Assembly (NCBI GenBank): GCA_023248875.1
Contig: JAHFDT010000001.1
Span: forward strand, 63,802-102,405
Source: Myxococcales bacterium
GTDB taxonomy: Bacteria; Myxococcota_A; Polyangia; Palsa-1104; SHYY01
Length of the DNA: 38,604 nt
Direction of reading: 5' to 3'
Made by a program: the position numbers and the translations under genes. The notes beneath the pieces are model-generated. The model had not been told where the DNA came from. It searched no databases and worked only from the letters and a program-made list of their open reading frames with translations. Below are positions 7,876 to 21,447 of the stretch, piece by piece; positions within the stretch are counted from its first letter, which is position 1, and each line of letters begins with the position of its first letter.

Positions 7876-8052
7876 AACGTCCCACTTCTCATCATGTTGC
7901 CTAAGTTCATTCCGGATGTGCCGGGTCGCTGCGAGGCGAATCTGCAGCCGCTCGACGCCTGTGGCGGCTGCGCAAAAGGCACCTATTGCACCGTTTGTAA
8001 GACCCTCAGTGGGCCCAAGAATACCTGCATGCCGAACGGCTCAGCCTGCTAG
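7876..8052 (+). pseudogene. In-frame Cys-rich extension after TAA (58 codons, then TAG)
   Basis: NVPLLIMLPKFIPDVPGRCEANLQPLDACGGCAKGTYCTVCKTLSGPKNTCMPNGSAC* in the same frame as 7696; no convincing RBS/start of its own. Confidence 0.45.
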
Positions 8053-8254
8053 ACCGACCTCACGTTAAGTTGAGCGTAGCGAGGCGATCCCCTCTGCCTC
8101 GGCCGCAGACGTCCTCGGACCGGGGGACCCCGAGACCGAGGCGAGACGAGGAGCGACGACGCAGGACTACTGTAGTAATCCAAGGAGGAGCGACGAAGTA
8201 TCCCCGAAGGAATCGGCCGCCGAGTAGGTCAACTTAACGTGAGGTCGGTCTAGC
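8048..8254. repeat. Palindromic element A: 26-bp perfect terminal inverted repeats (8048-8073 / 8229-8254) with structured core
   Basis: GCTAGACCGACCTCACGTTAAGTTGA ... TCAACTTAACGTGAGGTCGGTCTAGC; core shares a motif array with element B. Confidence 0.9.
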
Positions 8255-20714: not shown

Positions 20715-21078
20715 CCTGTGAGCTGGCAAACGGTCGGCGACGAAGAATCTGTGCGAGCTACCATGGTCCTGCTCCCGAGGGGCAACCCCGCCCGAGTAGT
20801 GTCTAGGGCCACGTATCGTATCGTAACGGCAATACGTGACAAGAGCAAATTTTTAAGTCCTTGAAGCCATTGTGATCATAGTTGGAGGGCCACAAAAAAC
20901 CTACATCCTCCTACAATTGTTCAGGTTTTTGCTGCCCTGCGTCATTATTGTCCGTATGGCCCGACCGGTAGAGTTCTCCTTGTGGGAGGATCCTCGGCCA
21001 GGGTGGCACCACACGGAAACGAGCTATCCTGGCGTTTGAACAGGCTCGCAAAATCGCCCCAGGGCCTACGCATTTGAA

Positions 21079-21279
21079 GTGATTGAAATCATTATCGAGG
21101 TCCACGGCACCGCGTTTCTGCGCAAGAGGGTGCGCATCCTCGCCGGCACGCTGGTCTACGCCGGGCGCCGCCGCTTTAGCGCCGCCGACGTCAGTGCGAT
21201 TCTTGCCAGCCGCGACCGGCGCCGTGCCGGACCGACCGCTCCTGCGCATGGCCTCACCTGGGTCCGGGTGGATGACTAG
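21079..21279 (+). pseudogene. truA: 5'-truncated truA (tRNA pseudouridine synthase A) C-terminal remnant
   Basis: IIIEVHGTAFLRKRVRILAGTLVYAGRRRFSAADVSAILASRDRRRAGPTAPAHGLTWVRVDD matches TruA C-terminus; no TruA N-terminal sequence upstream in any frame. Confidence 0.82.
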
Positions 21280-21434
21280 GGGTTGTCCTCAAAGTCCGGA
21301 CCGAGTTGGGCGAAGTTCGCAGTCCGGATCGCGCGGAGCGACGAGGGCGCCTACTGGCGATAGACAACCGAGGAGCGATAAAGCGAGCCGCGGCGAGAAC
21401 GAACCCGACGACAGGAGGACTTTGAGGACAGACC
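21280..21434. repeat. Palindromic element B, related to element A
   Basis: TGTCCTCAAAGTCC (21284-21297) / GGACTTTGAGGACA (21417-21430) arms; core GGAGCGACGA..CTACTG..GAGGAGCGA shared with element A. Confidence 0.8.
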
Positions 21435-21447
21435 TTAGTACAACTTG

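Follow-up and report, generated by a model that had tools for sequence, protein, structure and literature searches.

Two elements in the window, the whole 38,604-nt stretch analysed here (C123:63802-102405, in a 4.0-Mb genome of 304 contigs), carry the same interior between different ends, and the locus raises the question of what kind of element they are and what the shared interior is for. The initial annotation had taken elements A and B for diverged relatives with one core, and this reading holds: GGAGCGACGA lies at 8150-8159 in A and 21335-21344 in B, CTACTG at 8167-8172 and 21351-21356, and GAGGAGCGA at 8185-8193 and 21370-21378, with 35 nt from the first to the last motif in both. The closing arms of A are complementary over 26 bp, as had been claimed, whereas those of B are slightly longer than the 14 bp plus flanking pairs assigned to them (Table 1). 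A and B are probably MITEs of one superfamily that shares this core; several DDE transposases would act on them in trans, and the core would serve the element itself in single-stranded form.

Table 1. Positions of elements A and B, their parts and the coding-frame remnant next to B, in window coordinates.
Feature	Position	Strand	Basis or detail
Element A, A-family copy, 203 bp, TA to TA	8050..8252	+	CTAG at 8049-8052 and 8250-8253
A 5' inverted repeat, 26 bp, 100% complementary	8048..8073	+	
A 3' inverted repeat	8229..8254	+	
Folded core of A	8138..8211	+	Model R1, 82.9 bits; G000:C123:71939-72012
A tandem G.A helix, two strands	8151-8159, 8185-8193	+	Sequence
A apical hairpin	8164-8181	+	Sequence
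Coding-frame remnant, TAG stop in the CTAG at the B 5' end	21079..21279	+	Stops interrupt the earlier frame
Element B, MITE copy, TA to TA	21277..21437	+	CTAG at 21276-21279, TTAG at 21435-21438
B 5' terminal inverted repeat, 23 nt, 87% complementary to the 3' arm	21275..21297	+	
B 3' terminal inverted repeat	21417..21439	+	
Folded core of B	21323..21396	+	Covariance model R1, 67 bits; G000:C123:85124-85197
GAGCGACGA, 5' strand of the tandem G.A helix in B	21336..21344	+	Sequence, pairing
GAGGAGCGA, 3' strand of the tandem G.A helix in B	21370..21378	+	Sequence, pairing
B apical hairpin, family consensus GCCUAC-UGGCG-GUAGGC	21349..21365	+	

The core is abundant and widespread. In the 4-Mb genome that holds the window, the covariance model R1 (75 nt) has 130 matches at E<=0.1 and about 120 at E<=1e-3, and these cores belong to eight or more families that differ in their ends; family C, for example, ends in CACTACTGCGTCACTTTC, and families D to H were found through weaker core matches. 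Of 193 relatives, 69 have R1 matches, and these span many families of the class; across the phylum Myxococcota, the model R2 finds matches in 84 of 379 genomes, other classes included. For a gene next to the elements, the strongest relatives are in MAGs of Myxococcota and Deltaproteobacteria. The initial annotation had proposed such a search of the genome and its relatives, allowing that A and B might prove to be the only copies; about 17 B elements, 40 or more of A type and some 120 cores in this genome settle that point. Many copies lie at contig ends (e.g., C50, C15, C48, C194 and C200), where the repeats probably broke the assembly, so the true copy number is likely higher.

Copies of the B family in this genome, near full length and about 160 bp long, are at least 90% identical and have the consensus ends CTAGGGTCTGTCCTCAAAGTCC..GGACTTTGAGGACAGACCCTAG. 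Window B is a decayed member of this family: G-to-A changes at 21360 and 21364 disrupt two pairs of the apical hairpin, and the 5' end of the copy departs from the consensus. Its predicted fold has an energy of -65.3 kcal/mol (z -3.97). Another B-family copy, L048 (G000:C266:12795-12868, about 74 bp), has kept both arms and lost its entire centre. The A-type elements, with at least 40 matches in this genome, form subfamilies whose arms differ from one another and are complementary inside each copy (e.g., TAGACCGACCTCACGTTAAGTTGA, TAGACCGCTTTCACGTTAAAGTGA and TAGACCCCTTTCAGGTTGAAATGA). Window A is a long form with an extra internal hairpin segment of about 45 bp, which many A-type copies lack. 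Three identical A copies of 163 bp, each at another TA site, point to recent movement. The ~45-bp segment of window A (8090-8135) is found inverted on the opposite arm in L057, L144, L148 and L152, as would result from a flip of core and arm or from copying across the hairpin. Two relatives have extra segments of their own: in G002, a family carries another hairpin insert, GTTGCTCTCCGAGCTTGCTGCACGTCGGCGATAGCCGACGAAGC, which L235 has on its 5' arm and L239, L240 and L241 have in the core's 3' strand, and in G001 the 5' strand of copies L226-L230 contains a GAGCGAAGCGAGC-type segment that rewrites the lower stem.

When 16 cores of families A, B and C were aligned by MAFFT alone (A1; 23 invariant columns), RNAalifold recovered the core helices without any structure being supplied. 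In model numbering, these are a stem (3-10/62-69), a helix (13-22/49-58) and an apical hairpin (27-33/39-45). The middle helix consists of the pairs G14.A57, A15.G56, G16-C55, C17-G54, G18.A53, A19.G52, C20-G51, G21.A50 and A22.G49, in which tandem G.A/A.G units are set apart by Watson-Crick pairs; GAGCGACGA and GAGGAGCGA are thus the two strands of a single helix with three tandem G.A units. The repeated GAGGAGCGA-type sequence that the initial annotation had singled out is a real motif, but it makes better sense as the paired strands of a single G.A-rich helix than as the linear recognition site it had been taken for.

Covariation accords with this fold. Two-sided changes are found at 10 of the 18 pairs in A1 (score 0.303 vs. 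0.106 for shuffled alignments), at 16 among 59 distinct cores of relatives (0.538 vs. 0.149) and at 17 among 89 distinct cores from this genome and its relatives (0.529 vs. 0.155; slid controls at or below 0.10; 89.7% of cells paired), it being understood that alignments A3-A5 were fitted to the model structure and hence are biased toward the fold, whereas A1 is unfitted. That the fold is kept while the sequence varies, as had been suggested from two copies, is borne out by these figures, and the compensatory changes on which the suggestion depended do occur across core copies. Between two G.A units, the Watson-Crick pair 20-51 has flipped from C-G to G-C in roughly one sequence in four. At the non-canonical pair 15.56, 49 sequences have A.G and 34 have C.A, both sides switching together, and throughout the phylum the six non-canonical G.A pairs hardly vary. 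Kink-turn-type RNA motifs likewise have tandem G.A/A.G pairs between Watson-Crick helices, but the core has three tandem G.A units per helix, no three-nucleotide bulge of the kink-turn type was seen in it, and it has no Rfam match: a search of Rfam release 15 with both elements and 17 relative loci returned nothing meaningful at gathering or relaxed thresholds.

The stems also tell the two strands apart. On the sense strand, G.U pairs outnumber A.C pairs by 97 to 25; G.A mismatches are far commoner than C.U; and 95 of 102 elements have the lower predicted RNA energy on that strand, although none of these counts is made up of independent cases, since the copies have common ancestry. Together these features mark one strand as the folded one, and a strand-specific fold suggests that the core acts as a folded single-stranded nucleic acid. 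This strand would form a long hairpin made of the internal stem, the three-unit tandem G.A/A.G helix and an apical UAC-loop-GUA hairpin. G.U pairs and coordinated non-canonical swaps are typical of RNA, and because both are in use here, the core more likely works as a folded RNA, with single-stranded DNA as the second choice.

The ends differ between families in the target duplications as well. Family A has a 2-bp TA duplication flush with its ends in 48 of 60 cases, D a 2-bp duplication in 7 of 12, H a 3-bp TAA/TTA duplication in 14 of 15, C a 4-bp duplication in 13 of 17 (TTAG..TTAG among them) and G a 4-bp duplication in 10 of 10, where the counts take in both strand readings for some copies and the 2-bp TA or CTA repeat of A, D and B is indistinguishable from terminal bases without empty sites. 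The 4-bp duplications of C and G are CTAG, TTAA and TTAG, and the insertion sites are TA, TWA or YTAR according to family. Many dispersed, short, non-coding copies with terminal inverted repeats and target duplications (TA/CTA and ambiguous in B) are the marks of MITEs. Since duplications of 2, 3 and 4 bp occur side by side, the end arms appear to differ by more than drift, with different transposase types at work on different families; each family has its own terminal inverted repeats, and DDE transposases of more than one type would move the members in trans.

A candidate mover of family C is found in G010, where locus L268 (1266-2742) is a 1.48-kb IS701-family element with TTAACACTACTGCGTCA ends, flanked by TTAA/TTAG and encoding a 403-aa transposase (NF033540, 403 bits; PF13546, E 8e-64). 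Its end CACTACTGCGTCA equals the family C end over 13 nt, at one end; its 3' end has 2 mismatches in 13 positions to the family C MITE end. Duplications of 4-5 bp are reported for IS701 members (PMC8024623), and those of family C are 4 bp long. Judged by these ends, family C is most likely moved in trans by an IS701-family transposase. Unlike the MITEs, L268 encodes a transposase and lacks the core, and its ends are not those of A, B, D or H; no core was found inside any autonomous element. A DDE_Tnp_1 search of eight genomes yielded L268 alone with the ends of a core-bearing family. Of IS701, the genome of the window yielded only a remnant, internally deleted and with ends that do not match the MITEs. 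Because their duplications are TA, A and B would be mobilised by other DDE transposases. IS630-type DDE_3 transposases were considered and set aside, as this genome has four fragments whose ends do not match. A pattern search of the same genome with the A and B ends gave only MITE-sized pairs and no autonomous partner, and TAGGAGCCTGTT ends in the relatives G001 and G002 form about 50 pairs, all MITE-sized, with no autonomous copy among them. In G105, L275 (1-1542) looks like an intact insertion sequence: it has CTAGCAGCCCGTGGT ends, which are those of none of the core-bearing families seen, and codes for an IS1182/IS5-like transposase.

The position of the copies bears on whether the core acts on neighbouring genes. 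By crude gene calls, 46 of the 86 copies in this genome adjoin a predicted stop codon and none lies inside a gene, and the hairpins are stable, as would be expected if the elements were host regulatory RNAs, 3' untranslated hairpins that set mRNA stability or termination in the manner of Neisseria NEMIS, for which RNase III cleavage has been proposed (PMC2229807). The stop codon, however, adjoins the 5' end of the element in 30 cases (sense) and the 3' end in 26 (antisense), no orientation bias despite a strand-specific fold, which speaks against the element acting in cis on the upstream mRNA and led to the rejection of a strand-specific role in the 3' UTR. The YTAR target itself contains TAA or TAG, so that insertion preserves the stop, as it does at both window elements, and harmless, neutral insertion accounts for the location; moreover, the gene calls are crude and an element-terminal TAG can itself create a stop. 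A host regulatory role is thus decidedly unlikely. The frame that ends at B resembles what we take to be the C-terminal part of the tRNA pseudouridine synthase TruA; traced over 20800-21279, the frame is interrupted upstream, as it would be in a pseudogene or if the assembly had a frameshift. Since the folded core is kept by families whose ends are unrelated, in either orientation to the genes, it would serve the element itself, most likely as a protein-bound RNA, and would not regulate the neighbours.

Inverted repeats are known hot spots of quasi-palindrome correction, and template switching of this kind might by itself keep arms and stems complementary in decaying MITEs whose core has no function. 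The segment found inverted at the mirrored site in four A-type copies amounts to an exchange between arms, and quasi-palindrome correction may, on that evidence, help to match the outer arms. Such correction would, however, turn the six G.A pairs into Watson-Crick pairs, yet these are near invariant phylum-wide; nor does it fit the joint exchange of A.G for C.A at one non-canonical pair or the roughly fourfold excess of G.U over A.C on one strand, and template switching alone is an unlikely explanation of the core. Least probable, and very much so, is the mobilisation of single-stranded hairpins by a Y1 transposase, as in REP/RAYT or IS200/IS605-type elements, which the initial annotation had suggested looking for. 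The elements share with REP/RAYT sequences the form of short, dispersed, multicopy hairpins, and the CUAC/GUA near the apex recalls the REP GTAG motif, if only superficially. But Y1 enzymes make no target duplications; REP elements, moved by such enzymes, have no terminal inverted repeats with target duplications, which here measure 2-4 bp (3-4 bp in some families), and the ends of family C are carried by an IS701 element with a DDE transposase.

A bacterial MITE with a hairpin transcript is a known kind of element (PMC2229807). Correia/NEMIS elements are likewise non-autonomous, about 100-160 bp long and intergenic, with 5'-TA terminal inverted repeats and long stem-loops, and one of their forms has an extra internal segment of about 50 bp (PMC2229807). 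They are, however, a single family with a 24-bp terminal inverted repeat, confined to one genus and with no core common to unrelated ends, whereas the elements described here have a tandem G.A core and a phylum-wide spread; membership in Correia/NEMIS was rejected because terminal repeats and phylum differ from the published description (PMC2229807). ERIC/IRU, RUP and YPAL resemble the present elements in size, terminal inverted repeats and TA termini, and their transcripts are predicted to be highly paired, with A-G mismatches (PMC2229807), but each of these families has common ends, not a common core, and RUP is tied to one IS (IS630-Spn1).

In the open-licence literature on myxobacterial MITEs, IS701 MITEs and structured repeats, no description was found of a core common to families with unrelated ends and differing duplications. 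It is possible, and we put it forward tentatively, that the real selfish unit is a conserved non-coding RNA or single-stranded DNA module built on a triple tandem G.A helix, spread through Myxococcota on the ends of several unrelated transposon types, perhaps by recruiting a common host or transposition factor when folded. Bacterial MITEs are usually classed by their ends, with an interior that drifts; here the interior is kept phylum-wide while the ends and the duplication length vary. This raises the question, which can be put to the test, of whether a folded nucleic acid enables a non-autonomous element to exploit different transposases or to persist in its host. For annotation, the gain would be an undescribed structured motif with about 120 copies per genome.
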